64,000 bases of DNA from Tribonema minus (taxonomy: Eukaryota; Sar; Xanthophyceae; Tribonematales; Tribonemataceae): contig JAFCMP010000002.1 in NCBI GenBank assembly GCA_017506865.1, positions 558,001 through 622,000 on the forward strand, in the 5' to 3' direction. A program made the position numbers and the translations under genes. Positions 32,591 to 53,577 of the stretch are shown in pieces (position 1 is the stretch's first letter; the number at the start of each line of letters is the position of its first letter). The notes under the pieces were generated by a model that saw nothing but the letters and a program-made list of their open reading frames with translations, made no database searches and had not been told where the DNA came from.

Positions 32591-32641
32591 TGGAACCATA
32601 GATCTGATCTATGGTTCCACTGTACCGCTGGATATCCAACG
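32591..32641 (+). repeat. Left terminal inverted repeat of the PLV
   Basis: The 51 bp are identical to the reverse complement of 53527-53577. The outer 29 bp (32591-32619) form a perfect palindrome with 14-bp arms TGGAACCATAGATC around one central base. Inside the TIR follow three short units of the type TATCTAATGCCGCG (32650-32693), echoed inside the right TIR at about 53480-53520. Confidence 0.97.
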
Positions 32642-32821
32642 TACGTACGTATCTAATACCGCGCGCGTATCTAATGCCGCGCGCATCTAATGCCACTGTG
32701 CGATATCCAACCGCCGTAACCGTTTTCCTACACTTCGAGATCACGTTCGAAGATTAGTCGGAGCTGACTTTTGTGCCGCGGCCGTCTGAGCCGAATTATA
32801 ATATGATGCTTTGGATATCCA

Positions 32822-34324
32822 ATGCAACCCATCACTCACTCACCGCTTTCGCAATCGGCGAACATGCCAGCTACCGCGAAGCCTCTCCAGTTTCCTGTGC
32901 TGACCCACGCCCTCATCGAGCACATCGTGACCCAGGTGGGCGACGATGTTACCAAGGCTGCACTCAAGACGGCCATCGACGACTGGACCAACCTTGCTCT
33001 TCACCGCTACGAAACGGAATTCAAGCCCCTGAAGGCGGCCTACGATACTGTGTACAAACAGGCGAAGGAGACCATGACCCCCACCAAGTTCCAGAAATGG
33101 AACAGCTCCCCCTCCCAGAAGGCGAAGCGAAGCGAGATAGAGGATCTTCGCAGGGACCGAATCGCATACGGCGCCCACACCCTCAAGCAAGTTGTGCTGG
33201 AAACGGGTCCTGCCATAGCGAATCGGGACATCCGATTTAGGGACACCTGGGACTGCAAGCCGGTCATCTACCGCATCGCCAAGGACCAGACGATGGCCAA
33301 CAACGAGGAGAGGAGGAGGCCGACGGAGGGTGGCACCTTGCTCAAGTACAAGTTCGGACCCATGGTGGCGATGGCGAACGAGATCCTGGAGGATGACCTC
33401 TACCTCGCGGTCTACAGGAGGGTCCACTTCGCGCTTCAGCTCACGTCGGAACGCCGCGCCGAGGAGATCGTCAACCCTGAGTACAAGTACATCCCCCACC
33501 CCCACGACGAGCGGAAGGTCATCATCAGCTCCCTGTCCAAGAAGCAACCTGGCCAGATCCCCCAGCTCGACGTTCCGGTCCTACTCATCTGCGACCGCGA
33601 GCGCTGGTTCGCCGCCCTCGAGTGGCTGAGGGCGCACATGCTGGCCTGCCCGCTCAAGTCAGTGAGCAAATGGTTCCAGCAGCCCACCTCCCCCTTCGTC
33701 GAGTTCAACAAGGTGCTCAATGACAGGTACAAGCGCAGCTTCTCCTGCCACTGGCTGCGCCACATCTACTGCGCCTACATCGCCGCGATCCGGGGCACCA
33801 ACTTCTACGCGGAGAATGCGCATGAGCTCCTGTCCCACCGCTCCATGCTCAGCTCCATGTTCTACGCGGACTTGGAGTGCGATCTCGACGTCGACAAGGT
33901 CGAAGTGGACGATTCGGAGGAGGAGGAGGGGGCGAGGGCGTCCGAATCGGATTCAGAGGGAGAGGAGGAGGAGGCGAGCGCGTCCGAATCGGACACAGCG
34001 TCGGAGTCCGAATCGGATTCGGAGGAGGAGGAGGCGAGGGAGTCCGAGTCGGAAACGGAGTCGGCATCCGAATCGGAGACAGCAGAGGGATCCGATTCGG
34101 AGGTAGCGGATCCCGATTCGGATCTCACCGTGCCCCAGACTAGTGCTCTGGTCGACTACGAGTCCGAGCCAGAGGGGCCTCCGCTAGTTGACTACAACTC
34201 CGACTCTGATTCGGAGTCAGAGGTGCCTGCCCCGACTCGCAAGCTGTCGGGCCTCATGGCGCTGGCTGCTGCTATCGACATGTGTGAATCGGAGAGGGCT
34301 GCCAAGAGACCCAGGACGGCCTAG
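32822..34324 (+). CDS. PLV tyrosine recombinase, telomere-resolvase-like, with acidic tail
   Basis: 500 aa, the leftmost gene of the element. Candidate catalytic elements are an Arg in LTSERRAEEI, HWLRHIY, LLSHRS and a Tyr in SSMFYADL, the R...HxxR...H...Y order of tyrosine recombinases. The HxLRxIY form and the helical N-terminal region remind me of telomere resolvases (ResT/TelK family) more than of phage integrases. After about residue 360 comes an acidic Ser/Glu/Asp tail rich in ESDSE units. TATAATATG at about 32796 lies 25 bp before the first ATG; an alternative start is Met at 32864. Its substrate is probably the terminal palindromes (inference). Confidence 0.8.
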   Translation: MQPITHSPLSQSANMPATAKPLQFPVLTHALIEHIVTQVGDDVTKAALKTAIDDWTNLALHRYETEFKPLKAAYDTVYKQAKETMTPTKFQKWNSSPSQKAKRSEIEDLRRDRIAYGAHTLKQVVLETGPAIANRDIRFRDTWDCKPVIYRIAKDQTMANNEERRRPTEGGTLLKYKFGPMVAMANEILEDDLYLAVYRRVHFALQLTSERRAEEIVNPEYKYIPHPHDERKVIISSLSKKQPGQIPQLDVPVLLICDRERWFAALEWLRAHMLACPLKSVSKWFQQPTSPFVEFNKVLNDRYKRSFSCHWLRHIYCAYIAAIRGTNFYAENAHELLSHRSMLSSMFYADLECDLDVDKVEVDDSEEEEGARASESDSEGEEEEASASESDTASESESDSEEEEARESESETESASESETAEGSDSEVADPDSDLTVPQTSALVDYESEPEGPPLVDYNSDSDSESEVPAPTRKLSGLMALAAAIDMCESERAAKRPRTA

Positions 34325-34400
34325 AAATGGAATTTGAGACATTGAAGTTTCCGACTCGATTGTTTGCAAAACTGATTGCCATTTGCTGAGGTCCATAAAG

Positions 34401-34476
34401 CGTAAGCTGTAAGCAAATCGATGAGATGTTTGAAGTTGTGCATTGAAGTTTTGTTTTCATTTGCTTACAGCTTACG
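34401..34476. terminator. Hairpin between convergent PLV genes
   Basis: A perfect 18-bp inverted repeat (34401-34418 and 34459-34476, arm CGTAAGCTGTAAGCAAAT) with a 40-bp spacer lies between the 3' ends of the recombinase gene and the nuclease gene. The position suggests a two-way terminator or 3'-end signal. The arm is the element's dispersed motif (see findings). Confidence 0.65.
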
Positions 34477-34508
34477 AATTAAACCCGCTCCATTTGGCTG
34501 ACTGATTT

Positions 34509-35669
34509 TCAGAACCGCCTCTGGCGCTTCGGGGTGGGCTGCACCAGCGCGTAGTCCTCCAGCCGCTCCGCGTACCTCTTGAACGTGTACCACCCCTTCG
34601 CCTTCTTGTCCCACACAGCCCCCTTCGCCTTAGCATCCTCGCGCTCCTCCTCCGAGTACGGCACGTCCAGCCAGATCCTGGGGCCGGTGACCGCGTCGAG
34701 ATACGCGAGGTCGTCCTCGTCGGTGATGAAGTTCCTCATCTTGTACGCCTTGAAGAAGGTGGGGCACCACCTCCGCTTGAGCAGGGGATCGTACCCGTAT
34801 CCTTTCAGATTCTCATTGTCTGCGGGACACGTGATCGGCGCCAGATCCATGCGAAAGTTAGCAGGAATCGTAAGCCTCTGGGGCGGGGCGTACTGGCAGA
34901 TGACCGGAGGCTTGTCGGCAGCGGCCTTGCGGCTCCAGCAGTCGTTGCAGCACACGCCTCCCCCCTCCCTGCTCTTCGTCTGGTACTTGCTGAACGTCTT
35001 CTCGCAGTCTCCGCACACGAGCTGCACCATACAGGCCGGGCACACGACCGACGCGCTGTGAACGGCGATGACCTCCCCATCCGACTTGCTCGCAACCTCC
35101 CGTATGTAGTTCTCGACGAGGGCGCTGGCGTCCAGCTCGAACACGTTCTCGTATCCGAGCATCTTCTCCAGGGCGCCCAGCTTCACGGGGCAGCTGGCGT
35201 GCGATTTCTTGATTTCCACCACCGCGACGAGCTCGTCCGTATCGGGGTGGTGCAGCCCCACGTCCACGATGTACTTCTTGTCATCGCAGAACACCGTCTC
35301 CTCGAGGCGCACGACGTGGTCCTGAAACCGGCGCGCCGCCATGGTGATGCAACAGGCACAGATCTTCTGGAACACCAGCCTCCCGATGTTCTCCTGGATG
35401 AATCGCTTCCCCTCCCGGTGGCAGAAGGTCTCCCCCAGACCCGACGTGATCGCCTTGGCGGTGGGGTTGCAGGGCGGCGCGTCGTCGTCGTGCACGTGCC
35501 TCATGTGGTTGGCCTTGGCCTTGGGCAGCACGCAGATGATCTCGCGGGTGCAGCACGGGCACTTTCCGGAGCCACCGAGCGCGCGTGCCTCCAGCGGCCC
35601 CACCAGCCTCTGTTCGTCCCCCTCGCCCCACAGGCCCACCTCCAGCTGAACGTCACCCTCTGTCGACAT
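34509..35669 (-). CDS. PLV PD-(D/E)XK nuclease-like protein with zinc ribbons and DUF5710
   Basis: 387 aa from the ATG at 35669, chosen because AAATAAAATATG lies about 40 bp upstream and the upstream extension overlaps the divergent gene. N-terminal CPCC and later CxxC pairs suggest zinc binding. YIVDVGLHHPDTDELVAVVEIKKS fits the D...ExK core of a restriction-like nuclease. A second Cys-rich block (CPACMVQLVCGDC, CCNDC) follows. The C-terminus, IWLDVPYSEEEREDAKAKGA plus WDKKAKGWY, is DUF5710, a small domain often attached to DNA-processing proteins. I infer a role in DNA processing. Confidence 0.75.
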   Translation of the reverse strand: MSTEGDVQLEVGLWGEGDEQRLVGPLEARALGGSGKCPCCTREIICVLPKAKANHMRHVHDDDAPPCNPTAKAITSGLGETFCHREGKRFIQENIGRLVFQKICACCITMAARRFQDHVVRLEETVFCDDKKYIVDVGLHHPDTDELVAVVEIKKSHASCPVKLGALEKMLGYENVFELDASALVENYIREVASKSDGEVIAVHSASVVCPACMVQLVCGDCEKTFSKYQTKSREGGGVCCNDCWSRKAAADKPPVICQYAPPQRLTIPANFRMDLAPITCPADNENLKGYGYDPLLKRRWCPTFFKAYKMRNFITDEDDLAYLDAVTGPRIWLDVPYSEEEREDAKAKGAVWDKKAKGWYTFKRYAERLEDYALVQPTPKRQRRF

Positions 35670-35777
35670 GCTCGTCCGATCTTTACCACATGCACATATT
35701 TTATTTGCGCCACGCATGCCGCAGTGCGAAAAAAATGTCATGCACACAGTAACAGACCGAAGACGACGCGCTGCATC

Positions 35778-36122
35778 ATGGATCTCACAGCTGAACGCAT
35801 CCGCCATGACAGGGCCCTCATCGACGCTCACATCTGTCCGGTGTGCGAGCGCAGTACGGGTGGGTGCAAGCAGCAGAGGGAGGCGCTCAAGAGACACATG
35901 CTGAGATTCAGGGAGCCGGAGCACCAGCTCTGGTGCGACACGTTTTGGAAGATACACTTCTGTATTGGGGGGTACAAGAATCGGCCGGGAAAGCGCACCG
36001 TAGACGAGGTGCTTCAGATAGTACACAAGTATTTCGGAGACGATCTGGCTCGGGGAGTGGAAGCGCGGCTGCTGGTCCCGCACAGCTCCCCTACTGCATG
36101 TGAGCCGGGAGCTGCCTCTTGA
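35778..36122 (+). CDS. PLV small C2H2-like zinc-finger protein
   Basis: 114 aa. CPVCERSTGGCKQQREALKR followed by HMLRF...H resembles a single zinc finger near residue 20. It is divergent from the nuclease gene (109 bp between the two ATGs) and its tail overlaps the 3' end of the helicase gene by about 30 bp. It may be a transcription regulator or DNA-binding accessory protein; the function is unknown. Confidence 0.6.
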   Translation: MDLTAERIRHDRALIDAHICPVCERSTGGCKQQREALKRHMLRFREPEHQLWCDTFWKIHFCIGGYKNRPGKRTVDEVLQIVHKYFGDDLARGVEARLLVPHSSPTACEPGAAS

Positions 36123-38730
36123 GCTGGTCCGCCCCCTGCACCAGCCGCAGGCGCCGGTAGATCCACTTGTCGCGCATGCCCTCCGCATCCCTGCCCTTGT
36201 ACTTAATGGATACGAACCCCTTGTCCTTCATCACGCTGGTGAAATCCTTTTTTTTCATTGGCTGGTCTCTCGCCCTGTTCTTCTCGTTGTTCACCGTCAT
36301 CCACATGAGGTACGTCTCCCACATGGACGTCGCCAGCACGCGGTCCTCCACCGTCTTGTCCTCCGTGTCCACGCACTCGTCAAAGAAGTCCGCCAGTGCG
36401 TCGTTGTCGCTCTTGATGCGGTCGAAGAATTTCTCCATGCAGCGGGGCTTGGGGGGGAACTTGAAGTTGTTCGTCAGGAACTTGGACGCCCCGTCCACCG
36501 CGTAAGCCAGGAACGCCGCGGGCTCCAGCCCCTTCTCGAAATCCTCCACCTGCTTGAAGTGGGTGGGGTTGCTGGGGTCGTACGGCTCCACGGCAGTGGG
36601 GTCCTCGGGCACGAATTTGGCGGGGAACCACACGGCGAAGAGGCGCCTCAGGGTGGAAAAGTTGAGGTCCAGCTGCGGCAGGTTGTTCACCACCAGCAGA
36701 ATCTTGGCGGTCATGTTGAATTCCGTGTACTCGCGGTCGAATAGGTTGCGGGCCTTGATGGTCTGGTCGCCGGTCAGGGTCCTGAAGTTGCGCTCGTTCA
36801 TCACCGACTTCTTATCCCACTCCGAAATGACCCCCAGGCGCGCGTGCTGGAGATCGAGGAGGTGGGGCTGAGGGCCGCCCGCCGACTCCTGGGCCGCCCG
36901 CAGTATGTCCACCGAGGCGGTGCGGTACAGGTTCTTGAACGTGGTGCTCATCAGGACGGTCAGGGCGGTCTTGGCGTTGCTGCCCTCGCCCAGCCAGGCG
37001 AACAGGCACTGCTTGTTGGTGTATCCCGTGATCATGTATCCGATGGTCTGGTTCATCATCGTCGGCATTTCGTCGTAGCCCTCGAAATCGGCGGCCCGCT
37101 CCAGCCATTCCGGACCGTAGTCGCCGTTTCGGACCGCCACCGCCCGATCCGCCAGGGTGATCTGCCGCATGAACTCTTCGATTTTGGCGATGCTGGGGTG
37201 CTCCGGATCGTAATCGTAGGGGAGCGCGTACGACAGGTAGTCCTCGCGGCACCTCGCCCTCACCTCCTTCGTCCTCAGGTTCACCACCCCGTTGGCGCAG
37301 CTGAGGAGCTCCGGATCGTGGTCCAGCTTGTCCTTGAAGTGCTTGTCGCGCAGCCGCACGCACAGGTCCCTCACCACCCGGGTCCGCTTGTCCACCATGT
37401 AGACGGCGGTGCACGCCCTCGTGAACGTCTCCGCGTCCTCCGCCAGCATCGCCTTGTCCTTCAGCTCGTCGACCCGCTGCACGATGTGCTCCATCTCCCT
37501 GGTGATCATGTACTCGGCGCTCCTGGGGATCCAGAGGCACTCCTCCTCGTCGAACACGTAGAACTCGGCGGTCTCCTTTCCCTCCTTCCCGGCGTTCACC
37601 ACGTCCTTCCCGCGAAGTCCCTCGTAAATCGTGGCCAGGCCGACGTCTCCCCGCATCAACAGAGCGATGTCCCTGATCACATCGGGAGGTACCTCTCTCG
37701 CCCTCTTGGCCTCCCTCTCCGCTTCGGCCTCCTCCTCGATCTCCCGGGGCCGCTTCAGCACCACGTCCCCGTACTCTTCCCTCAGCTCCGAAACGGTCAC
37801 CGCCGGCACGTCCTTGAGCTCCAGCCAGATCGCCCACCCCGTCTCCTTGAGTACCGCATCCGCCAGGTCCAGCAGCTGGTCCTCGGTCGGCTGCACCAGC
37901 GGCATGAGCCCGTCGTGCATGGGCACCTGGGGCTGAAGCTTCAGTTCGGTCGCCCTGTTCCAGATGGCGTGCAGGCAGGCGTTCTCCGCCGCCTGCATGA
38001 CCAGGCTGGCGCAGCTGAGGTCCGGGTGCTTCCTGCCGGCGCACGCCTTCAGCACGTGCGGGTTCGCCTCCGCTATGACTTTCACCGCGGCGCGGGCCTC
38101 CTTCTGCAGCGCCGTCACCAGCCGGTGCTTGAAGGGCTCGGCGTCGTCCGAGAGCGCCGCCCTGCCGTCGTAGCACACCTTCTGCAGCAGCTCCTTGGCC
38201 TGCGCCACCGAGATGTCGAGGTCTCCCGCCACCGTCGCCCTGATCCTCTTCGAATCGTTCGCGTACGCCGTGATCTTCGGAACGCTGAGGCCCAGTTTCG
38301 GAAGGTACTGACTCATCAGCATGGGGTGGCAGCACTTGATGTCGACGTCGCAATGGTTGCCGCTCGCCAGCATGTAGCGGACGGGGCGGATGAAGTTCTG
38401 GAAGCTGGGGCCGAGGGCTGACAGGCGGCCGTAGTCTCCCTCCCTCCTGTTGTATGTCACCTTCACCACGTGGCCCAGGTCGGGATCCTCCGTCACCCCG
38501 TTCGCGTACTGCACCAGCAGCCTCTCCATGTTCTCGCACCGCCACACGTCCTTCGCGCTCTTCTGCGAGTACCCCAGGGCCACCTTGTGCATCAGCTCGC
38601 GGTCTGCCAGCAGCTCGTCCAGCGCGGCCTTGTTCACCACTTCCACCCCCGTGATCTCCCCCATCTGGGCGGTCACGTACTTGGGGAGGCGGGGAGCTGG
38701 GTCCGGGGACATCGTCTGCATGTCCGCCAT
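36091..38730 (-). CDS. PLV replication protein: TV-Pol-like polymerase fused to SF3 helicase
   Basis: 879 aa from the ATG at 38730, chosen because TTATAATATG lies about 30 bp upstream. The N-terminal half has CDVDIKCCHPMLMSQYL and a late VPMHDGLMPLV, the signature layout of the family-A-like TV-Pol domain. The C-terminal half has WLGEGSNAKT (Walker A), LGVISEWDKKS and ILLVVNNLP (SF3 motifs), as in D5-type helicases. The fusion is known from PLVs and virophages. The protein is likely to replicate the linear element genome. Confidence 0.87.
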   Translation of the reverse strand: MADMQTMSPDPAPRLPKYVTAQMGEITGVEVVNKAALDELLADRELMHKVALGYSQKSAKDVWRCENMERLLVQYANGVTEDPDLGHVVKVTYNRREGDYGRLSALGPSFQNFIRPVRYMLASGNHCDVDIKCCHPMLMSQYLPKLGLSVPKITAYANDSKRIRATVAGDLDISVAQAKELLQKVCYDGRAALSDDAEPFKHRLVTALQKEARAAVKVIAEANPHVLKACAGRKHPDLSCASLVMQAAENACLHAIWNRATELKLQPQVPMHDGLMPLVQPTEDQLLDLADAVLKETGWAIWLELKDVPAVTVSELREEYGDVVLKRPREIEEEAEAEREAKRAREVPPDVIRDIALLMRGDVGLATIYEGLRGKDVVNAGKEGKETAEFYVFDEEECLWIPRSAEYMITREMEHIVQRVDELKDKAMLAEDAETFTRACTAVYMVDKRTRVVRDLCVRLRDKHFKDKLDHDPELLSCANGVVNLRTKEVRARCREDYLSYALPYDYDPEHPSIAKIEEFMRQITLADRAVAVRNGDYGPEWLERAADFEGYDEMPTMMNQTIGYMITGYTNKQCLFAWLGEGSNAKTALTVLMSTTFKNLYRTASVDILRAAQESAGGPQPHLLDLQHARLGVISEWDKKSVMNERNFRTLTGDQTIKARNLFDREYTEFNMTAKILLVVNNLPQLDLNFSTLRRLFAVWFPAKFVPEDPTAVEPYDPSNPTHFKQVEDFEKGLEPAAFLAYAVDGASKFLTNNFKFPPKPRCMEKFFDRIKSDNDALADFFDECVDTEDKTVEDRVLATSMWETYLMWMTVNNEKNRARDQPMKKKDFTSVMKDKGFVSIKYKGRDAEGMRDKWIYRRLRLVQGADQLKRQLPAHMQ

Positions 38731-39413
38731 GGTGTCGTTTTTGTTACACCCAAGCAACATATTATAAATCGGCCAGGGCCGGCGTGGCCGCGCTGGGGCC
38801 AAAACTTTCTGGCCCCACATGGCCCCACCTGGCCCCAGGCCCTCTAGGGTGGGGCCTAAGGGGGTGAATGATAATAATTTTTTATCGAAAATGGGGCCAT
38901 AGATTTGGCCCCAAACCAGACCTGGGGTAGTAGGGGTAGCTCAACATGAACATTTGAAATACAGTGTTTTACAATGTTCATGTATTGACCCAGCCATAGG
39001 TGCCTTTCATTTCGGGGCTGGCCCCAGCGGCCCCTGTGGCCCCGCCCCGAATTCTGCCCCGCACCCCCTCAGGAGCAGGCGCCTGCCGGAAACGCTCACC
39101 TAGTGAAGGTGTGGGGCCAAAAGTTCTTGGCCCCAGCAAATCCGGCCCCATCGATTTGCTTACAGCTTACGAATTAACGACGGTCCTCAGATGGAATCGA
39201 TTTCCAGCGGCCGTTCAAAAAAAGTTCCGACCCCCGCCCTCTAGTCCCAAGTCATGTGCGTCACCAGATTGAAATAGATACCGTTGTGCTTCTTCTGAGC
39301 GGCAGTCTCTCTGTTTATTTGCATATACCTCATCGTCGCCCTCCTGTCGTAGACCCTCGCCCGGGACCACGGATTGTTGATCACGTTCTCGTGCTCCGCG
39401 TCCATTTCCGGTG
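38731..39413. other. PLV intergenic region with GGGGCC-rich inverted-repeat unit
   Basis: It holds the first copy (about 38790-39143) of a 350-bp repeat whose ends are inverted copies of CTGGGGCCAAAACTTTCTGG, then one copy of the dispersed GCTTACAGCTTACG motif at 39154-39177. No gene is supported. Confidence 0.7.
38790..39143 (+). repeat. MITE-like unit, copy 1, inside the PLV
   Basis: The left end GCTGGGGCCAAAACTTTCTG matches the reverse complement of the right end (about 25 of 29 bases). The inside contains repeated TGGCCCCA words. A second copy lies at about 51238-51588 in the same orientation, with long identical stretches in the first 170 bp. No clear target duplication is seen. Confidence 0.75.
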
Positions 39414-40775
39414 TTACAGTTCCTGTAATGTTTTCTGGCGTGCTTGGAACCCGAATGGGTCCTCCCGGTCCTCCGGTACTCCATCCGCTTTTCGCTTGCC
39501 TTGCCACTCGGTAACGAACTTCTCCCGGTCCTCCACTTTTGGCACCAACAGGCACTGGCCTCTCAGCAGGACACGCCCGGGCAGCTCCTCGATTCGGACC
39601 GTATTGTCGACATCTGAATGCGAAACGACCGTGTACACCTCCTCCGAGAACGAAGCGTTGTGAGTCGATTTCCAGCGCCCCTGCTTCCTCAGCTGTCGAA
39701 TCGAATTGGACAGAGCGATCACGTCGATTCGGACCTTGTCTCCCTTGCGGAGCTTATAGTTCATCTTCTGGGGTAAAGACCTCCCCTTCGCCAGCGCAAA
39801 CATGGTAGCCTTGGCTTTCGCCAGCACCGCCTTGGGACATTCCGGATCCTGCAAATCGGATGGCCGGTAGCCGGTGACGGCATTCTGGGAGTTGTTGATC
39901 ACGCGCAGCACCTTGTCCAAATCGGCCGTCAGCCTGACCTTCTTCCGATTCGCACCGTCTCCCATCCAATACGAGAACAACAGTGTCTTGATTGTCTTGA
40001 CGCTCGTTTCGGCTGCTGCATTACCCGTCGGATTCGCAGGGAGGGAGTAGATCGCCTTGATGCCGTTCTCCCTGCAGAAAGTCAAGTATTCCTTCACTCC
40101 CTTCCATTCGTTGTCACTTCGGATGTACTTTGGTTTACTAGGCATCGAATCGATCATCTCCTGCAGGGCGGGAATGTACACGGCGGCCTCCCTCGTCCTC
40201 AGCACTTTGGCACGGATGTACTTTGTGAACAGGTCGGTACAGACCAGCACGTAGGGCTGATCGAACTTTTTGGTGTTGGCGTCCTCACCCTTCGCCTGCA
40301 GGTAGCCGAAGTCGATGGCCACTGTGTGATTCGGCCCCTTAGGCGTTGTCGTCTGGGTCTTGCTGCTGCGAGTCCGCTGGAAGTACTGTTGATGCGCATC
40401 GGAACTTCGTAGGTACTTGCTCACCTGGCTTGCTGAAATCCCGATATAGCGTTCCTTGAGATAGGCGAACAGTTTCTGGGTGCCCATCGACGAGGGCAGA
40501 TCGTTGAATTCCGAATCGAGGACGCCGTAAACGAGCGGCTGAGGGAGCACGATTCGGCCACTCCACCAATACAGGTCATTCGCCCTGTCAAACTCCAACT
40601 CTTCAGGGAACGGAAACCGCATCGCAATATCATCGCCCGATTTGAACTTGAAGCATGATACAAGTGACAAACGTGATCGAAATTTGGTGTTCCCGACCTC
40701 GGAAACGTCGTGCTTCTCGTTCTTGTCTGCAAGCTCTCTTATGGAGTCAGCACGTTCTTCAGTGGGTTCCGTCAT
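39414..40775 (-). CDS. PLV rve-type (DDE) integrase
   Basis: 453 aa from the ATG at 40775; an upstream ATG at 40790 lies inside the AATATTATG promoter-like motif. The catalytic core is HTVAIDFGYLQ (first D), YIRSDNEWKG (second D) and NAAAETSVKTIK (E), with the D-35-E spacing of retroviral-type integrases used by Polintons. It makes staggered cuts, consistent with the 5-bp target duplication. The N-terminal region may carry a helical, zinc-binding-like fold, but I see no clear HHCC. Confidence 0.92.
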   Translation of the reverse strand: MTEPTEERADSIRELADKNEKHDVSEVGNTKFRSRLSLVSCFKFKSGDDIAMRFPFPEELEFDRANDLYWWSGRIVLPQPLVYGVLDSEFNDLPSSMGTQKLFAYLKERYIGISASQVSKYLRSSDAHQQYFQRTRSSKTQTTTPKGPNHTVAIDFGYLQAKGEDANTKKFDQPYVLVCTDLFTKYIRAKVLRTREAAVYIPALQEMIDSMPSKPKYIRSDNEWKGVKEYLTFCRENGIKAIYSLPANPTGNAAAETSVKTIKTLLFSYWMGDGANRKKVRLTADLDKVLRVINNSQNAVTGYRPSDLQDPECPKAVLAKAKATMFALAKGRSLPQKMNYKLRKGDKVRIDVIALSNSIRQLRKQGRWKSTHNASFSEEVYTVVSHSDVDNTVRIEELPGRVLLRGQCLLVPKVEDREKFVTEWQGKRKADGVPEDREDPFGFQARQKTLQEL

Positions 40776-40835
40776 TTCACAAGGCAACAAACATAATATT
40801 CGACACGGGAGGCAGATGTTGCATCGATTTCGTAT

Positions 40836-41288: not shown

Positions 41289-41532
41289 GGTTGCTGAGGT
41301 TGTGAGGTAGTGAACACAGGTCGCCAGCTCTGCCCCACCTGAGAGCTCTGCTCAGAACTATTTTGAAATAAGTCCAAGCTCACCCGCCGCGGAGTTTCAA
41401 ATTCCGCTTGACAAGCATGTGCAGCTGAGAGGAACCCCCAGAAATCGATCGCAGATATGGAGGGGCATTAATTCGTAAGCTGTAAGCAAATGAGACTCGT
41501 TCAAAAGACTCGACTTGATCGATAGAATCGAT

Positions 41533-42574: not shown

Positions 42575-45500
42575 TCAGGTTGACATGAAATACGCCGTTC
42601 CCCCGTTCACCGTGATAGTATAATTGTCATCAGACGAGGCCGCGTTCACCTCGATTCCCACGGTGTACGTCGATCCCGCTGAGACCGCGAACTTGGCCAT
42701 GCAGCAAAAGTTAGCCGCGTACCCGGGGTCGTCGCCTATGGCACGGGGGAGCTTCGTGAAGGACGTCGTGGTGGTCGTGTAGACGCCGGCTTTCACTAGG
42801 TAGGGCCGGCACCCCGTGGAGTCCGCCCCGCTGCCGGTATTGATCCTCCCGTTCCCCATGAACGAGATGGTCACGTAGCTGTTGATCATGTACATGCTGA
42901 AGAGGGGCTCGAACTGGTTCGCCCCTGACGTTACGCCCGTGACGACAGAGTCGAGGAGGAGGGGGATCACTTCGGAGGCCCTCGTGTTGACGCACGCGTC
43001 GCAGAACACGTAGCGACAGTTGATGTCCGTCGTCAGAGAGAGGGTGGCCGCGCTCACGTCGCCGGTGACCGCGACCGAAGCGCCGGTGATGGCCCCCGAC
43101 GAGGCGACCGAGGTGGCGGCGATCGGCCCGCCGATGACCGTGTTAGAAAACACGTTGTGGCCCGCTACGGACGTGAACACGGTGCCCCCGGGAGCCGTCG
43201 TTCCATTGTTCTGCAGGTCCATGACGAATGCCTGCGCCGCGCTCGCGTGGCCGTGGCTCCTCGCGTTCACGTAGACGTAGACGGGGACCGCCGTCTGCAC
43301 GTACACGTACAGCTCGTGGTTCGCAGTGTAGGTGGAGATGTTCGTGAGCTGAATGTCTCCGAATACGGTGTTGGAATTGTAACTCCCCGAGTGGTCGACG
43401 ATAACGCTGCGGTAGATTCCTGTGCCCTGGTTGGAGAGGCAGTAGTTGATGTGTATCAGTAGGCAGCAGTGCCTGCTCGAACCGGCGCCGGTGACGGATA
43501 CGGTACCCGTGAAGCGCTGGCCGAAGTAGCCCAGTTTCACCCACGTTGAGGCGACGCCGGTCCCAGTCGAGATCGCCGCCGTGTCACCCTGTACCACCCC
43601 CGTCAGAATGGCGTTGGCGATGGAGGAGGTGCCCGTCACGATGGCGTCGACCTGCGACTTCAGCGACATGACAACGCGGTTGAGCGACCGCATCGCCTGC
43701 GGCTTGATCTTGCGCATCGCGGCGTACCCCGTGGCTGTCGTGTCGATCGCGGAGATGCGAGTGCTGAGCGAATTTAGGTTTCTTCCACAGTCTCTTCCCA
43801 GCACCGGTTTAGTTCGCCTCGAGTTGGCTGAGATCCGAGTCGAAAGAGCGGAAACCACGCGGTCGATGTTTCGGGCCACCGCCGGCTTTACGATTCGGGC
43901 CCCAGCCGATATCCGATTCGAGAGCGAAGTCAGCATGCGGCCGCAATCCCTGGCCAGACTCGGCTTCACGCGGCGATTGCTCTCCGAAATGCGAGTTGCG
44001 AGCGAATTGAGAATCCTGTCGATTCCTCTCGTGACCGCCGGCTTCGTGCGTGCCACGACGCGTTTCGCAATACGAGCCAGAAACGGCTTGACTCGGACCT
44101 TCGGGAAAAACGTTCTCCGCATCTGAGGACGTTGCAGCAGCGTTCCCGTAGGCACCCCGTTCACATTTCCGACCGCCAAGTTGAGGACGTCCGAATCGAT
44201 GGCTGAGGCGGTCGAAACGGAAGTCTGGTACGCCGAGATGGATCCGTCGTAGTACACAGAAACGACTGGTGCTGAGGAGGGTCCGAAGGTGGCGAGTAGA
44301 GGGTTCGTGTCCACGTCCGTATCGATCGCTCTCATGCCTAACCCCGTCAGAGGAGCGACCGACTCGCCGAAGCTGGAGGCACCCGAAACGGACATGTTGC
44401 CGGTGACGGAGAACATCGACACCGCCCGTTCTACCAGTGTCCCGAGTGCGTTCGTAAAGCTCCCAGCCGGGGCCATGTTGGCCATGCCTCCCGCCATGCT
44501 GTAGCTCATGTCTGCGGCGTCCATTCCCTGCATGAACTCGTCCGGAATGGCATAGTCCGGGAGGGGCGCGTAGCCCTGAAACTGGGGCCACATCTTGGCG
44601 ATTCCCTCTCCAGCCGTGATCGCCGCCTGGATTCCATCCACTACCCCCTGAGCGGCTAGGGCGGCGTTGATGCCCGTAATGTTGGTATTTATCAAATCGT
44701 ACCAGTCGTTGAAGCTGACCCCGTTGATGATGGCGTCCGGACTGATCTCCACTCCCAATGCGGACATGCTGATGATGGAAGTGGGCACCGTGCCCAGCGT
44801 CACGTCGGGGATGAGGGTGGCTAGAGTGAGTTCCGCCCCCGTCAGTGCGGTCGCGGGGGTCACGGTGATTGTCACCCCTCCGTACACGTTGGTCGAGTAC
44901 AGCTGGTCAGAGACCATGCACCCCGACTCCAGGATCAGCACCCGGTCGTTTTCCCGCTGTAGCATACGATCCAGCCTCCTGTTTCCCATATTACCGTGGA
45001 CGTTTCGGGAGATACACATGCCGTTGATGCTGGAGGAGTTGACGGAGCCTTCCGTGACGAGGGTGCCCTTGATCTGGCAGTTGCCCGAGGTCGAGTTGAT
45101 CGCCATCATGATCGCATCGTTGCTATTCTCCCAGAGCCAGCCTTCGTTGGTCTGGGACTGCTGGCGGAACCTGGTACACTGACCGGAGACGACGGGGCCG
45201 TAGAAGAGGGCGGTAGCTCCCCCTGAAGTCTTGGTCGTCGCGCAGTAGATGAGGAAGTTGGTGCCCCCGGTGTTGTAGAGGTACAGAGGAGTCGGGGCGG
45301 TGAAGCTGCCGGACGAGTTGAGAGCCAGTCCGTTGGCCAGGATGGTGCCGGAACTGCTGACGTTTCCCGTGAAGGATGGGGCCGTCAATGTCTTGTTTGT
45401 GAGAGTGAGGGTACCCGTCCTCAAGTCGGATGCCGCCCTCAGGAACCAACGCGCCATGTTGGCATTCGGATTGATGCCGCGGTAGAAGGGCATGGCGATT

Positions 45501-45598
45501 CGATACGCCCTGTCTCGGCGCGCCACCTGAGGCTTCACTGTGGATGCCAACTGGGCCGAATCCACGGTCACACCATAGTAGTTCTGAAGATTGGACAT
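42575..45598 (-). CDS. PLV fibre/adhesin-like protein (about 1007 aa)
   Basis: The start at 45598 (MSNLQNYYGVTV) follows GTTAAATGTATG. The N-terminal part has TLTNKTLTAPSFTGNVSSSG repeats typical of phage tail-fibre shafts. The middle holds four to five repeats of about 35 residues with the pattern KPxxxRxxxRxxxSLxxRIS. The C-terminal part is Ser/Thr/Gly-rich with beta-prone segments and may form the receptor-binding head. By analogy it would be a vertex fibre binding the algal host; no catalytic motif is seen. Confidence 0.7.
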   Translation of the reverse strand: MSNLQNYYGVTVDSAQLASTVKPQVARRDRAYRIAMPFYRGINPNANMARWFLRAASDLRTGTLTLTNKTLTAPSFTGNVSSSGTILANGLALNSSGSFTAPTPLYLYNTGGTNFLIYCATTKTSGGATALFYGPVVSGQCTRFRQQSQTNEGWLWENSNDAIMMAINSTSGNCQIKGTLVTEGSVNSSSINGMCISRNVHGNMGNRRLDRMLQRENDRVLILESGCMVSDQLYSTNVYGGVTITVTPATALTGAELTLATLIPDVTLGTVPTSIISMSALGVEISPDAIINGVSFNDWYDLINTNITGINAALAAQGVVDGIQAAITAGEGIAKMWPQFQGYAPLPDYAIPDEFMQGMDAADMSYSMAGGMANMAPAGSFTNALGTLVERAVSMFSVTGNMSVSGASSFGESVAPLTGLGMRAIDTDVDTNPLLATFGPSSAPVVSVYYDGSISAYQTSVSTASAIDSDVLNLAVGNVNGVPTGTLLQRPQMRRTFFPKVRVKPFLARIAKRVVARTKPAVTRGIDRILNSLATRISESNRRVKPSLARDCGRMLTSLSNRISAGARIVKPAVARNIDRVVSALSTRISANSRRTKPVLGRDCGRNLNSLSTRISAIDTTATGYAAMRKIKPQAMRSLNRVVMSLKSQVDAIVTGTSSIANAILTGVVQGDTAAISTGTGVASTWVKLGYFGQRFTGTVSVTGAGSSRHCCLLIHINYCLSNQGTGIYRSVIVDHSGSYNSNTVFGDIQLTNISTYTANHELYVYVQTAVPVYVYVNARSHGHASAAQAFVMDLQNNGTTAPGGTVFTSVAGHNVFSNTVIGGPIAATSVASSGAITGASVAVTGDVSAATLSLTTDINCRYVFCDACVNTRASEVIPLLLDSVVTGVTSGANQFEPLFSMYMINSYVTISFMGNGRINTGSGADSTGCRPYLVKAGVYTTTTTSFTKLPRAIGDDPGYAANFCCMAKFAVSAGSTYTVGIEVNAASSDDNYTITVNGGTAYFMST

Positions 45599-45637
45599 GT
45601 TGCTCGATTCAATTGAACCATACATTTAACAGCGGAT

Positions 45638-47060: not shown

Positions 47061-47858
47061 TCAGAAAGAATCCGCTATCTTGTCGGCCCACAAGTCAACG
47101 AATAGATAGCTGTGGGGAGCCAGCGTGTAGAGATGCAGTTTACGTTGAAACTCCTCTTCGCTCATCATGCCCCCCAGCGATTCGTATATCAACTTCTGCT
47201 CCCTCGTGGAGTGCGTCTTCCAGATCGCCCAGTGGGTCACATTGAGTCGAATCGGCTTCGGGCAACCCGTCAGCGTCTGCACCATGAAAAAGATGCTGAG
47301 CCCGAGTCCCTCTCCGATATGTCGACTCTTCAGCACTAAATTCACGAGGGGATTGCGCGCAGACTGAGACATGAGTATGCTTCCCTGGATGTCGTCCAGT
47401 ACCAGGGCGGGACTGGGACGTTTCGGCTTGATCTCTCTGAACCCTCCCGTCTCCAGCAGGTTCTCCTCGACGTGAGATATCGTCTCCCCGGAGACAAACT
47501 TTTTGTATGCGATCTCGTATTCCAAGTCATGGCGATATTTGGCAGCGTCTGCCTCGCACTCCTGCACGACTTCCTGGATGTGCTGAAACGCATTCTTGTC
47601 CAGATCCCAGGTCTTGTCCTCCGGTGTAAGGATCGCCTTGTAGATCGAGTTCGAATCGGCGGTCGGACTGATTAGAAACACCTTGTTGATTGAACCCTCA
47701 GCTCTCATCATTCGTATCAGGTTGATGGTGGTGAAGGACTTGCCGCCTCCGGTGCTGGCGAGAGCACAAAAGATGGTGGGCACACGGCTGAGATACTTGG
47801 ACTCGAGTCGGGGCATACCCGGAAACTTCACGTTGAGATCGAGCAACTTTCGCACCAT
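47061..47858 (-). CDS. PLV genome-packaging ATPase (FtsK/HerA superfamily)
   Basis: 265 aa. Walker A is LASTGGGKSFTT near residue 35; Walker B is PALVLDDIQGS near 155. The length fits the 250-300 aa of Polinton and virophage A32-like ATPases. It pumps genome DNA into capsids. TTAAATCTTG lies about 25 bp upstream. Confidence 0.9.
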   Translation of the reverse strand: MVRKLLDLNVKFPGMPRLESKYLSRVPTIFCALASTGGGKSFTTINLIRMMRAEGSINKVFLISPTADSNSIYKAILTPEDKTWDLDKNAFQHIQEVVQECEADAAKYRHDLEYEIAYKKFVSGETISHVEENLLETGGFREIKPKRPSPALVLDDIQGSILMSQSARNPLVNLVLKSRHIGEGLGLSIFFMVQTLTGCPKPIRLNVTHWAIWKTHSTREQKLIYESLGGMMSEEEFQRKLHLYTLAPHSYLFVDLWADKIADSF

Positions 47859-47897: not shown

Positions 47898-48005
47898 ATG
47901 CTTACAGCTTACGAATTAATGACCTCGCCGAAGTCGAATCGATTTTGAGTGGCCAGGAGACGAGTCTTTCCGACGAGTCTCATTTGCTTACAGCTTACGA
48001 ATTAA
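47898..48005 (+). repeat. Two tandem copies of the PLV dispersed motif
   Basis: GCTTACAGCTTACGAATTAA occurs at about 47900-47919 and 47986-48005. Each is followed by a similar 30-bp stretch (AACGAGGTCGCC...GAATTGATTT). They separate the ATPase gene from the next minus-strand gene. Confidence 0.9.
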
Positions 48006-48468: not shown

Positions 48469-48705
48469 ATGGCTACTTTCCCCCAAATCGTTCAATTCGA
48501 TTTCAACATGATTCCCTGGCAGACTCCTCCTACCGAGGAGGCCTGGACCGCGGCGGCAAAGTTCATGGATGACAACCGGGAAGCCCACCTCGAGGAATTA
48601 AAAAATTTGCCAGAGCTAGCAGAGATCAAGCGACAGCTAGAGAATGACGACCTACCAGAGGGCCACATCCGTCTTCCTGAGCGCCCAGAAGGGGACGACG
48701 AGTAA
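48469..48705 (+). CDS. PLV small acidic protein (78 aa)
   Basis: It begins MATFPQIVQFDFNMIPWQTP and ends acidic (RPEGDDE). Its 3' end overlaps the start of the penton-like gene by 62 bp in another frame, so the two are probably co-transcribed. Function unknown. Confidence 0.65.
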   Translation: MATFPQIVQFDFNMIPWQTPPTEEAWTAAAKFMDDNREAHLEELKNLPELAEIKRQLENDDLPEGHIRLPERPEGDDE

Positions 48706-49438
48706 CAGCTTCTACGATTCGGTCTACTACCAGCTCCCGCTCCCGATTCAGGCGGACGAGGGATGCAACGTTCTCCTCAGCGTTCAGAACTTCTCAATGG
48801 TCAACTCGAGGACCGTGATCTCAAGTTACAACAACGTCTTGACACTGAACGGCGTGAGCAAGACGGTGATACCAGGAAACTACAGCGCGTTCGAGCTGGT
48901 GGCGGCGCTGCAGTCCTCGGGCGTGAATGCGACGTACAACAAGACGAGCCTGAAGGTGACGCTCGCTTTCTCCGTTTCCACCACGGTGACGGGGAGCATG
49001 TGCACTCCTCTGGGAATCACATCCGGAAGCACCGGGACATCCGTATCGACGTCGAACAGCGTGCAGCTGACGGGACCGCTCTCAGTCTACATCGGAACGA
49101 ACCTCCAGGGTGGAAATGCGGCACAAGACCGCGGCAACAGCATCCTCGTCCGCATCCCCAACTCGGTGCCGACTCTGGACGTGCTACACTACTCGGACGC
49201 GGTGTCGAACACGGGGCTGCTGTTGCACGACACGTGCGTGCAAGCGCTGACCATCTACTTGACGGATGAGTTCGGAGCGCCGTTCCTGTGCAGCGTGCCG
49301 TACGAGTTGACGTTGCTGTGCAAGCAAGTTCCGACGGGGCGGCAGCAGCTGATGGTCCCCCGCCCTGCCGGATTAGTTGCACCGATTCCGACAATGCCGC
49401 CAACAAAATCTCACACTAGTAGTAACAAACGCAAGTGA
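48644..49438 (+). CDS. PLV penton-like minor capsid protein
   Basis: 264 aa. SVYYQLPLPIQADEGCNVLL, VQNFSMVNSRTVISSYNNVL and later beta-rich segments fit the single jelly-roll penton protein of PLVs and virophages. It lies two genes before the major capsid gene, the usual order. Its stop codon overlaps the next ATG (TGATG). Confidence 0.8.
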   Translation: MTTYQRATSVFLSAQKGTTSNSFYDSVYYQLPLPIQADEGCNVLLSVQNFSMVNSRTVISSYNNVLTLNGVSKTVIPGNYSAFELVAALQSSGVNATYNKTSLKVTLAFSVSTTVTGSMCTPLGITSGSTGTSVSTSNSVQLTGPLSVYIGTNLQGGNAAQDRGNSILVRIPNSVPTLDVLHYSDAVSNTGLLLHDTCVQALTIYLTDEFGAPFLCSVPYELTLLCKQVPTGRQQLMVPRPAGLVAPIPTMPPTKSHTSSNKRK

Positions 49439-49844: not shown

Positions 49845-51149
49845 ATGTCTCTCCCCAAGCAGCTGATGTTCCCGCAGATCAAGTCGCCCGCTGCGGCGGC
49901 GGTGAGCGTGATCCACAGTGTCACTCCGATCACGGGATCCTCGTTCGCTCCGGGAAACACGATCAGTTTCGACATTCCCACTACTCGGGGGCAGTGGCTC
50001 GATCCCGCGTACACGTACGTTCAGCTCACAATCACCCCCACTTTTACGGGAGCTGCCGGGTGTCAATTCAACCCTTGGGATTTCGTCGACTCGCTGAACC
50101 TCTACTCGTCTGCGGGAGCGCAGCAGCTGGAGAGCGTCTCGACTGGTTACGCGTCCCTCTTCCACTGCCTCAGGGATCTGTGTTCGGATGCGACGAACGT
50201 GCTCGCAGGCGACACAATCTGCTACAATACATCGCGGTCCGCGACCTCTATTGCCAACGGGCTGAGGACGTACGCCACGGTCGCATCCGGCACGTCCATC
50301 ACCCTCACCATGCCGCTCATCAGCGTTCTGGGAACTCTGAGCGCCGGCCAGACCTATATCCCTCTGCACGCCCTGAACTCCTCCCTGCGCCTCGATCTCG
50401 GACTCGCATCCGTGAACCAGGCTCTGTCAATGTTCACCGGCGTCACTGGGTCGCCCACCTACGCGATCACATCGCCCAGTCTCAATTTGTGCCTCGTGAC
50501 CGTGGGAGATTTGGCAATGCAGCAGATCGAACAGATGACCGGGGGCGTGTACGCGTTCAACTGCACGACATACAGGACTCACCGCGCGGCCCAGGCGGCC
50601 TCGCAGCTGAGTAACGTAATAACCATCCCTGCTCGTGCGGACAGCCTCAAGCACATCATCTTCGCGCAGCGTCTGGCGGCGACGCAGGAGGTGATCGCGG
50701 CCTACTCCAACGCAGAGAGAACGACCAACAACTTGGCCACCTACGCCGTGCGCGTCGGGAGTGCGTATCTGACACAGAAGCCAGTCGTGGTGGCCGCTTC
50801 CGGGATCACGACCAACGGAGTGGGTGCTTACATGGAGGCCAAGAGGATCTTTGGGAACACCACCAGCGAGACATACCCGACGCTGCTGACGGCCAGCACG
50901 TACTTCGGTTCTGGAGGAGTCACCCCAGCCGCAGACCTGTCTCCCGCTTCCTTCCTATTCGGGATCGACTGTTCCCCGTTCAACAATGTTTCTGCTCTCC
51001 TCAGCGGGACATCTACGCTTACCAGCAACGTCTACCTGGAGCTCGTGTACGGCTCAGCTCCCGCTGCGGCTTACATCGACGCTTACGTGTGCTTCGATTC
51101 GCTGTTCACCATCAGCAAGCAGACTGGCAGCATGAGCATCGTTTTCTGA
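49845..51149 (+). CDS. PLV major capsid protein (double jelly-roll type)
   Basis: 434 aa. The N-terminal FDIPTTRGQWLDPAYTYVQL and FNPWDFVDSLNLYSSAGAQQ correspond to the first jelly roll of PLV capsid proteins. The C-terminal VYLELVYGSAPAAAYIDAYV is the usual last strands. AATAAAATATTG lies 35 bp upstream. The length is a little under that of virophage and Polinton capsid proteins (about 500-650) but normal for several PLV groups. Confidence 0.87.
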   Translation: MSLPKQLMFPQIKSPAAAAVSVIHSVTPITGSSFAPGNTISFDIPTTRGQWLDPAYTYVQLTITPTFTGAAGCQFNPWDFVDSLNLYSSAGAQQLESVSTGYASLFHCLRDLCSDATNVLAGDTICYNTSRSATSIANGLRTYATVASGTSITLTMPLISVLGTLSAGQTYIPLHALNSSLRLDLGLASVNQALSMFTGVTGSPTYAITSPSLNLCLVTVGDLAMQQIEQMTGGVYAFNCTTYRTHRAAQAASQLSNVITIPARADSLKHIIFAQRLAATQEVIAAYSNAERTTNNLATYAVRVGSAYLTQKPVVVAASGITTNGVGAYMEAKRIFGNTTSETYPTLLTASTYFGSGGVTPAADLSPASFLFGIDCSPFNNVSALLSGTSTLTSNVYLELVYGSAPAAAYIDAYVCFDSLFTISKQTGSMSIVF

Positions 51150-51813
51150 TCTGAAGATACGACACACACTAGAGCCTAAATGCACATTTTCAACATCTAT
51201 AACATCTCTCACTTCTGCTGCACAGTTGCAAACGACGACCAGGGGCCAAAATTTCAGGCCCCACATGGCCCCACCTGGCCCCAGGCCCTCTAGGATGGGG
51301 CCTAAGGGGGTGAATACTACTTATTTTTTATCGAAATTGGGGCCATAGATTTGGCCCCAAACCAGACCTGGGGTAGTGGGGGCAGCTCAAATCGAATAAT
51401 GAAAAAACAGTGTTGTACAATGTTTACGTTTTGACCTAGCCATAGGGGCCTTACATTTTGGGGCTGGCCCCAATGGCCCCAATGGCCCCGGTCAGCATTC
51501 GCAACAGCGCCTTGTTAACTCACAGCACAAACAGAAATGCACCCCTAGTGGAAGGGCGGGGCCAAAAACGCTTGGCCCCAGTAGCAGCGAACATGTGTGG
51601 CACACAAGCAGCACAAATACAACACTGCGCACATGATCTCTTTATTGGCACTAGGCACTTGTGTATTCAGTCTCTCTGTACATCACATACCAGCACTATG
51701 AATACTTAGCCAAATCGGACACCCCCCACGCGATTCGGAAAATCCCATCCGAATCGGAAACCCAGATCCGAATCGGACACCCCTGTCCGAATCGAAAACC
51801 CCCCATCTCGCAA
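51150..51813. other. PLV right-arm intergenic region with MITE-like copy 2 and CCGAATCGG iterons
   Basis: It holds the second GGGGCC-rich unit (about 51238-51588). It then holds a run of five TCCGAATCGG-type words at 51712-51801, just beyond the stop of the minus-strand gene. No gene is supported. Confidence 0.7.
51238..51588 (+). repeat. MITE-like unit, copy 2, inside the PLV
   Basis: Same orientation and order of blocks as the copy at 38790-39143. The segment around CTGGCCCCAGGCCCTCTAGG to GGCCATAGATTTGGCCCCAA is nearly identical. The ends again form an inverted repeat of GGGGCCAA...TTGGCCCC. Confidence 0.75.
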
Positions 51814-53046
51814 TCAGTTCTTGGCCCTCTTGCCGCCGCCCTCCGCCTGCATATCCTCATAGATCTCCAAGGCCTCCTCCTCACTGCAGCCAAGGTCGCG
51901 CTGCAGCTCAAGAAGCTCGAGGAACATCGACTTGGCCTCAGCGAAGCTGACGCCGCGCTTACGCTTGAGCTCCAAGATCTGCTTAGTGTACTCCGAAACG
52001 GGCGTGCGAGTTGCGGGAACAGGCACAGCAGCCGCAGCAGCAGCAGCGGGAGCAGCAGCAGCGACAGGCGCAGCAGCAGCAGGCGCAGCAGCAGCAGGCG
52101 CAGCAGCAGCAGGCGCAGCAGCACTGGCAGCACCAGGAGGCGTAGCAGCAGCGGCAGCAGGCACATGGCCCAAATCGGACAGCTCACCCGAATCGGACGG
52201 GGCGGCCGAACCGGATGCAGCAGCGCCGCCCTCCGTGTTCGAACTGCGGCGCAGGGCAGCTAGCGCACTGCGAGAAAGAGGCTTACAACCCTTGTCGCCG
52301 GAGTCATCGCCCCCGCCACCACCGCCCTCGTCATCATCATCCGAATCGGATGCGTCCGGATCGGACGGAGCAACATCCGATTCGGATGTAGAAGGAGCAG
52401 GATCATCGCCGGGCTCCTCGTAGCTCTTGGTGGCGGACGCAGCAGCGCGCGCAGGAGCGGGAGTGCGCTGCTTGTCGGGAGAGGCATCGCACTGGTACGC
52501 TGGCGAATCCGCAGGAAGCCCGGTGGCGGCGGCCTTGGCCTTCTTGGCCGAACCGGATACGCTGCCCGATCCGGATGCGGCCGGTTTGGCTGCGGGCGGA
52601 GGCATGAACTCAGGGGGGTTGTCGATGTCGTAGAAGGCAACACGGTTCATGTAGTGCTTGATCAGCTTGTGATCGCCATTGTCGTCACCCAGGTAGGTGA
52701 ATCTAGGGTTGAAGGTCTTGGTGTGCTCCATAGCGCTGCCGTGGAAGAACGCGTTGAAGATGTCGAACACCACCTGCATCGATGAGCTGTGGTCGGTGGC
52801 TTGCTTGTCATCGGCCACTAGCCTGACGACGAGGCGAAAGTTGCCTGGCACGTCGCCCTTCTTGGTGTGAGCAGCAAACACCTTGTCGACACGCTTGCTC
52901 TTGAAGCCTTGCACCAGCCCGCCTTTCTTGCCGAACACGGCCTGCGGCGACGGCAGAGGCTTGAAGTACACAGCAGCTTCGGTAGGTCCCACCTCCATGC
53001 TGTACCACCTAAGCAGCGTCATCCTCTCGGCACCAGCCTCTGACAT
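51814..53046 (-). CDS. PLV right-arm protein with acidic and Ala/Pro low-complexity regions (410 aa)
   Basis: The ATG at 53046 starts MSEAGAERMTLLRWYSMEVG. About 150 residues of apparently folded sequence follow (for example VVFDIFNAFFHGSAMEHTKT), then a Ser/Asp-rich stretch with SESDVAPSDPDASDSDDDD, an AAAAP repeat, and a helical C-terminus (EYTKQILELKRKRG). No family is recognised. The acidic ESD-type tail resembles that of the element's recombinase. TTGCAG directly precedes the ATG, so a 5' non-coding exon is possible. Confidence 0.6.
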   Translation of the reverse strand: MSEAGAERMTLLRWYSMEVGPTEAAVYFKPLPSPQAVFGKKGGLVQGFKSKRVDKVFAAHTKKGDVPGNFRLVVRLVADDKQATDHSSSMQVVFDIFNAFFHGSAMEHTKTFNPRFTYLGDDNGDHKLIKHYMNRVAFYDIDNPPEFMPPPAAKPAASGSGSVSGSAKKAKAAATGLPADSPAYQCDASPDKQRTPAPARAAASATKSYEEPGDDPAPSTSESDVAPSDPDASDSDDDDEGGGGGGDDSGDKGCKPLSRSALAALRRSSNTEGGAAASGSAAPSDSGELSDLGHVPAAAAATPPGAASAAAPAAAAPAAAAPAAAAPVAAAAPAAAAAAAVPVPATRTPVSEYTKQILELKRKRGVSFAEAKSMFLELLELQRDLGCSEEEALEIYEDMQAEGGGKRAKN

Positions 53047-53057
53047 CTGCAAGCGCA

Positions 53058-53270
53058 ATGAACACGTTACAAGCAGAAAAATCAGAATTTGCTGATGCGC
53101 GACAGATAACACTTGCAAGTCCTACCGCCGTCGTGGCAAATAGCTCAAGTATGTCTAGTACAAGTACTGACAGCACCACGGCACAATATCCCAGCGTCTA
53201 TGGCGCGCAAACGCCAAATCCCGCGTTATTGAAAACAGCCGAGGTGAGCAGTGTAGCGTGCGCGAGCTAG
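53058..53270 (+). CDS. Small Ser/Thr-rich frame near the PLV right end (doubtful)
   Basis: 70 aa, beginning MNTLQAEKSEFADARQITLA. The coding-like stretch runs to GCCGAG followed by GTGAGC, which could be a splice donor. No motif is recognised and the frame is divergent from the gene at 53046. It may be a chance frame. Confidence 0.25.
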   Translation: MNTLQAEKSEFADARQITLASPTAVVANSSSMSSTSTDSTTAQYPSVYGAQTPNPALLKTAEVSSVACAS

Positions 53271-53526
53271 CGCACACCAGAACTGCGACCAGCAGGCAGA
53301 CGCAAGGAGCTACTGCTTATTAGAGGAGCCATGTGCTCACCTGGTTCTCAAGTGCCTCGCGTGTGCTGCTTCCAGCGATAGCTCACTTTTTGCTTGGTTG
53401 CAAAATAACCGCGAGCGCGCGCGGAAGTGACGGTTTCATTCTGGGGCATTGGATATCTGTCGCTGCCTGCTGTAGCATTAGACCGCGGGTAGCATTAGAT
53501 ACGCCGCGGCATTAGATATTGTGCCG

Positions 53527-53577
53527 CGTTGGATATCCAGCGGTACAGTGGAACCATAGATCAGATCTATGGTTCCA
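53527..53577 (-). repeat. Right terminal inverted repeat of the PLV
   Basis: This is the inverse of the left TIR with 51/51 identity. The outermost 29 bp (53549-53577) form the same palindrome. It is flanked outside by CAGTC, matching the left target duplication. Confidence 0.97.

Follow-up and report, generated by a model that had tools for sequence, protein, structure and literature searches.

Terminal palindromes beside a protelomerase-like recombinase suggest possible hairpin telomeres in a Polinton-like virus element of Tribonema minus

We analysed a 64,000-nucleotide stretch of DNA (the window; C2:558001-622000) in the 158-Mb genome of its host, Tribonema minus, which contains a 21-kb virus-like element bounded by two palindromes. 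Both palindromes are 29 bp long, begin with TG and end with CA; their centre base is T at the left end and A at the right, so that the two are inverted copies of one sequence. The initial annotation had reported the same palindrome at both ends, and this was borne out: the 14-bp arm is found at four places in the window, forming one inverted pair at each element end, and none of 100 shuffles reached four matches (allowing up to two mismatches). No other palindrome in the window has perfect arms as long as the two at the element ends (14 and 15 bases); the next best has 11, and 20 block shuffles of the window never gave an arm above 12. The palindrome and a further 22 identical bp form the terminal inverted repeat, with weaker similarity further inward. 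Immediately outside both palindromes lies a 5-bp direct repeat, CAGTC, which was absent from the earlier account.

The genes of the element are listed in Table 1. The leftmost is the open reading frame (ORF) that the initial annotation had placed there, encoding a tyrosine recombinase, and a retroviral-type DDE (rve) integrase had been overlooked. A Pfam scan of 17 window ORFs gave no match to a family B polymerase (PolB). For the double-jelly-roll major capsid protein, the penton and the A32-type ATPase of a Polinton-like virus, the element offers candidate genes only: the putative major capsid protein, of 434 amino acids (aa), had no Pfam or PDB sequence match, although 39 stretches of the genome, including its own copy, match it, and the C511 counterpart of the candidate packaging ATPase matched Pox_A32 weakly (0.0094, below the cut-off). 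The element has terminal inverted repeats, an integrase, a primase-helicase and a size within the range of about 15-40 kb, and is probably an integrated small DNA virus of the Polinton-like virus (PLV) type. A motif like TGCTTACAGCTTACGAATTAA recurs between its genes in both orientations, possibly as a shared promoter or terminator, and the element also contains an internal direct repeat.

Table 1. Features of the element in the window (positions counted from the first base of the window)
Feature	Position	Strand	Basis or remark
Target-site duplication, left copy, CAGTC, 5 bp	32586..32590		sequence
Left terminal palindrome, 29 bp, TG...CA, 14-bp arms, centre T	32591..32619		
Left terminal inverted repeat, inner part, 22 bp	32620..32641	+	identical to right end
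Tyrosine recombinase, protelomerase-like	32822..34324	+	R-K-H-R-H-Y positions, acidic C-terminal tail
559-aa protein	34509..36188	-	DUF5710 (8.9e-8); possible PD-(D/E)xK-type nuclease motif by eye
D5-type primase-helicase	36091..38820	-	D5_N 1.8e-13, Pox_D5 2.6e-6
rve (retroviral-type DDE) integrase	39414..40790	-	PF00665 6.7e-11
1016-aa repetitive protein, possibly fibre-like	42575..45625	-	87% identical relative in C290 element
Candidate packaging ATPase, P-loop-like GGGKS	47061..47858	-	weak Pfam ResIII only
Candidate minor capsid (penton) protein	48644..49438	+	adjoins candidate major capsid protein in relatives; putative role from position and conservation only
Candidate major capsid protein, 434 aa	49845..51149	+	putative role
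Right terminal inverted repeat, inner part	53527..53548	-	
Right terminal palindrome, 29 bp, centre A	53549..53577		
Target-site duplication, right copy, CAGTC	53578..53582		
TGCTTACAGCTTACGAATTAA-like motif sites	34396-34418, 34462-34482, 39157-39177, 41469-41491, 47899-47919, 47985-48005		
Direct repeat, 259 bases	38796-39054 and 51242-51500		copies 86% identical

We examined 20 candidate-capsid loci (L009-L028) with flanks of about 1.5 kb for palindromes. A palindrome with arms of 13-15 bases lay within these flanks at seven loci and not at the other 13, although at two of these 13, L009 (the locus in the window itself) and L015 (on C110), one lies further out; one further palindrome was obtained from a recombinase locus (L007). 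Pattern searches of the genome allowing up to three mismatches gave three copies on C290, two each on C157, C490, C511, C146 and C57, and one each on C112, C123, C133, C348, C126, C92, C110 and C509. C123 and C348 represent the same place on opposite strands, and the empty site on C126 described below shows that the C92 and C110 palindromes are opposite ends of a single insertion. Both ends are known for eight elements (C2, C290, C490, C92/C110, C157, C511, C146 and C57), and one palindromic end was seen for three (C112, C133 and C123/C348); the genome-wide listing had no candidate-capsid match on C123 or C348. Terminal palindromes, noted by the initial annotation in the window element, thus recur in the same genome at both ends of seven further elements and at the one end seen of three more. 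Every palindrome is 29 or 30 bp long, starting with TG and ending with CA except in the decayed C509 copy, and the sequence differs from element to element. The rve domain is also present in C511 (6.1e-8, just above the cut-off), whose primase-helicase belongs to another Pfam family (DUF5906) than the D5 type of the window; rve and the recombinase occur together in these two elements, and a stretch resembling rve was seen close to the capsid candidate of C522. As side observations, the candidate-capsid matches lie on many contigs, so that many related elements, some of them with stops, are present in this alga. At C290:865756-868844 (L034, L035), about 1465 bases of the host left flank recur in inverted orientation between two right-hand palindromes, at 99.0% identity, as would result if copying jumped from the right end of the element to its left end.

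The recombinase of the window element had no meaningful sequence match in Pfam, PHROG, NCBIfam or PDB; database entries for Tribonema minus include two related proteins. It appears to carry the R-K-x-R-H-Y catalytic positions of the tyrosine-recombinase fold: in our motif assignment R197-R198, K227, H296, R299 and H325 are invariant across five element recombinases, and the catalytic Tyr is present in four of them, the fifth gene model stopping just short of it. The double Arg at box I is shared by all six protelomerases and all six element proteins compared, and is followed by xxE in five of the latter. A second recombinase subfamily is encoded beside the C511 palindrome and near the palindromes of C123/C348, C157 and C57, and weakly matches C92 and C490 (3.6e-10 and 2.9e-4), linking both subfamilies. 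Altogether, a recombinase gene was found in eight of the 11 palindrome-bearing elements (C2, C290, C490, C92/C110, C157, C511, C57 and C123/C348), 0.2-4.4 kb from a palindrome. Recombinase matches on C544, C44 and C75 had no palindrome in the stretch examined, and two further weak matches lie at C1:61569 and on C346.

Telomere resolvases cut a palindrome with a 6-bp stagger and seal the products as hairpins. To place the recombinase family, six element proteins were compared as a profile with six protelomerases and six integrases using hhalign. The family profile scored 71.1 (probability 95.6%) against phage protelomerases and 40.7 (58.5%) against phage integrases, while column-shuffled controls reached at most 19.4 and 16.0, respectively; scores against single references were 28.7-52.7 for protelomerases and 12.6-26.9 for integrases. 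Singly, four of the six element proteins prefer protelomerases. Compared as a profile, the family is closer to protelomerases than to integrases. VIA-align of a weak model of the recombinase placed ResT, TelA and TelK at ranks 1-8. The likeness to ResT/TelK-type resolvases proposed in the initial annotation was thus partly supported: Cre- and lambda-type enzymes were not the better match for the profile, and the weak model listed resolvases first. The likeness did not extend to the box-II residue, which is His in all five proteins of the motif assignment and in C511.

Perfect 5-bp duplications surround six of the eight two-ended elements (C2, CAGTC; C290, GCCGT, pairing the first and third of its three palindromes; C92/C110, GTGGC; C157, TGTTT; C511, GACAA; C146, ACTTG). 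On C126 we found an empty site in which the flanks of the C92/C110 insertion run uninterrupted, with one GTGGC and no palindrome; aligned to the joined flanks, it is identical at 591 of 600 bases and has 7 additional gap bases. This site may be an allele or a duplicated region, and this is the sole insertion for which an empty-site counterpart was found. Since the empty site lacks a palindrome, the element brought the palindrome with it, and 5 bp of the target were duplicated on insertion. Such duplication is typical of rve integrases, which yield 5-6 bp duplications according to the available part of PMC12220804. The empty site lies about 1.3 kb from a single palindrome on the same stretch (L042, approximately 204-209 and 1501-1530), and L042, which matches the host flank of C92, also contains repeats of stretches at window positions 62033-63796; these probably belong to a repeat family of the host.

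Two of three single palindromes also sit between 5-bp duplications. At C1:1240458, the palindrome of the window with one arm base changed is flanked by ATGTG on both sides, within the probable intron of a light-harvesting-like gene (read by eye), and at C509:778692 a decayed palindrome of the C92 kind is flanked by GTCGC on both sides. Comparison against the window and the remaining loci gave nothing for the C509 stretch; for the C1 stretch, similarity was confined to the palindrome, extended in some rows by about 11 bases at 86-88% overall identity, which we attribute to chance. Judged from their sequences, these two sites look like scars of precise element removal by an event at the palindromes.

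The palindromes themselves carry a further pattern. Their arms pair perfectly apart from 0-3 central bases, and the unpaired centre is 0-1 bp in nine of the 11 palindrome-bearing elements. The group formed by C157, C112, C133, C123 and C126 comprises four sequence variants that differ at three places, with each change present on both arms, and the two C157 ends differ from each other at two central bases, symmetrically. Read on the same strand, the two C490 ends have TTG and CAA as their centres, so that the unpaired centre is identical in the two inverted copies. The single palindromes at C1 and C509 have a change on one arm only. In a closed hairpin both arms belong to one duplex, so that a change reaches both arms in one copying round; a hairpin state would account directly for the paired arm changes. 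Decay of methylated CG could be an alternative source of the central CG/TA change in C157.

The best explanation of these observations, to which we give a probability of about 0.5, is that the virus has a linear free genome whose covalently closed hairpin ends are made by the resolvase it encodes, and that rve integrates this genome. Each hairpin of the free genome would be half of a terminal palindrome. Replication by the D5-type primase-helicase would join the ends as full palindromes, which the protelomerase-like recombinase would resolve into hairpins. The rve integrase would nick each hairpin after the conserved CA, 14-15 nucleotides from the tip, and attach the freed 3' end to the target at positions staggered by 5 bp; gap repair would then copy the unfolded hairpin into a full palindrome at each provirus end inside the 5-bp duplication. 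The recombinase acting on both palindromes could release the virus, and the rejoined host ends would then hold one palindrome between two duplication copies. The full palindrome, the outer TG...CA, the 5-bp stagger and the hairpin-like co-variation fit such a single integration scheme. Somewhat more tentatively, we propose a small eukaryotic virus lineage whose hairpins are made by its own tyrosine-type resolvase and integrated directly by a retroviral-type integrase, so that an unfolded hairpin forms each end of the provirus and every excision leaves a palindrome behind as its scar. The free form with resolvase-made hairpins suggested in the initial annotation gains from the palindromes in relatives and from the profile similarity; hairpins, nick position, resolution and release are what we infer.

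Several observations weigh against this explanation. The box-II His is that of Cre-type enzymes, rather than the Tyr of TelA and ResT or the Lys that our alignment shows in TelN, TelK and PY54; box-II Tyr is thus not universal among protelomerases, and in TelA and ResT it replaces His (PMC3558466, available part). The hhalign protelomerase alignment is shifted by two residues at box II, four of the six protelomerases and four of the six integrases were compared as matched stretches and not as whole proteins, and the C511 (18.1 versus 16.9) and C92 (25.8 versus 25.3) proteins singly prefer neither family. The predicted local distance difference test (pLDDT) score of the model was 55.7 (full-length 37.2) and all Z scores were below 8 at 9-15% identity, with the lower resolvase rows (Z 5.6-5.8) within 1 of lambda Int (4.8) and so tied according to the tool. 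There was no recombinase match for C146, C112 and C133 in the partial element DNA examined, and the rve search covered the window element and C511. Two duplications are imperfect (C57, GTTAG/GCTAG; C490, GTGTG/TCGTG), and the palindrome at C126:31010 has no duplication around it. The evidence consists of genomic copies, with no free viral DNA seen.

The main rival, which we consider rather unlikely, reads the palindrome as a loxP-like site at which a Cre-like recombinase excises a circle, with rve inserting it and no hairpins formed. The canonical R-K-H-R-H-Y with His in box II suits such an enzyme, 29-30 bp is close to two loxP arms, and because palindrome-by-palindrome deletion predicts single palindromes with intact 5-bp duplications, the scars are explained equally well. 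However, the family is nearer to protelomerases than to Cre or lambda Int in the profile comparison and in the structure listing of the weak model, the small unpaired centres of nine of the 11 elements mean that there is no asymmetric spacer, and rve insertion of a one-palindrome circle would need an extra step to give palindromes at two ends. Site-specific integration of the att type, with the palindrome as a core shared with the host and the recombinase integrating a circle, would place a palindrome at both ends of every two-ended element, as observed, and integration by a tyrosine recombinase is described in other algal viruses (PMC13236599, available part). We regard it as very improbable, since the C126 empty site without a palindrome contradicts it for the sole insertion tested, the insertions are flanked by differing 5-bp duplications, and an rve integrase is present.

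A parvovirus-like rolling-hairpin mode, in which the palindrome is a self-priming hairpin opened by another nickase and the recombinase has another job, would fit the paired arm changes and the flip/flop-like C490 centres, and the 559-aa protein has a nuclease-like motif by eye. It appears improbable, as the Pfam scan found no HUH-type nickase among the 17 window ORFs and the recombinase near the palindrome in eight of 11 elements would be left unexplained. Marginally less probable again is that the palindrome is only a symmetric rve binding site kept by selection, unrelated to hairpins or the recombinase. TG...CA ends and 5-bp duplications are integrase signatures, but such integrases need one binding site per end and no palindrome, and the exact paired changes across variants would exceed the needs of a binding site.

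If the hairpin explanation is true, hairpin telomeres made by tyrosine resolvases extend to small eukaryotic virus-like elements, beyond phages, bacteria and (as proposed) giant algal viruses, a retroviral-type integrase uses hairpin ends as its substrate, and single palindromes record past excisions. The differing palindromes in one genome provide natural variants for enzyme/site pairs, and 29-30 bp TG...CA palindromes with 5-bp duplications provide a simple sequence mark for such elements in other algae. Among the open-literature papers listed, judged by title and start of abstract and with subscription papers and preprints outside the scope, we found no palindrome-ended, protelomerase-bearing PLV of this kind, the nearest being PMC13236599; the main text of PMC10120064 contains neither 'hairpin' nor 'Tribonema'.

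The element recombinase resembles TelN, TelK (N15/phiKO2-type), TelA and ResT in its tyrosine-recombinase catalytic positions, the box-I double Arg and a palindrome near the gene, and these enzymes were its best profile match and came first in the structural listing of the weak model. The systems differ in that the box-II residue is His and not Tyr or Lys, an rve integrase is aboard and the host is eukaryotic. Whereas N15 and phiKO2 have one internal telRL, annotated beside telN and the phiKO2 protelomerase gene, here a 29-30 bp palindrome stands at both provirus ends. In Ectocarpus phaeoviruses, according to the available part of PMC13236599, closed hairpin telomeres were proposed on the basis of a conserved telomere resolvase and an internal palindrome that shows sense-antisense reads, and a separate tyrosine recombinase was proposed to integrate the circle at CC dinucleotides. 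Related algal hosts and a palindrome with a proposed telomere resolvase are thus shared with these viruses as described there, but they are giant and their palindrome is internal, whereas the palindromes of the window element form the ends of the provirus, with rve as the probable integrase. The cryptophyte PLVs of PMC12220804, in the part available, are 14-40 kb long with terminal inverted repeats and have rve or a tyrosine recombinase as alternative integrases; the window element resembles them in size, terminal inverted repeats and rve with short duplications, and differs in that both enzymes occur within one element. The string 'palindrom' does not occur in the available main text of that study. 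The palindromic ends and D5-type primase-helicase of the window element also recall poxviruses, whose hairpin telomeres involve palindromic junctions and a primase-helicase of this type. In vaccinia the hairpin junctions are resolved by a Holliday-junction resolvase (PMC13236599, available part), whereas resolution in the window element would probably be by a tyrosine recombinase.

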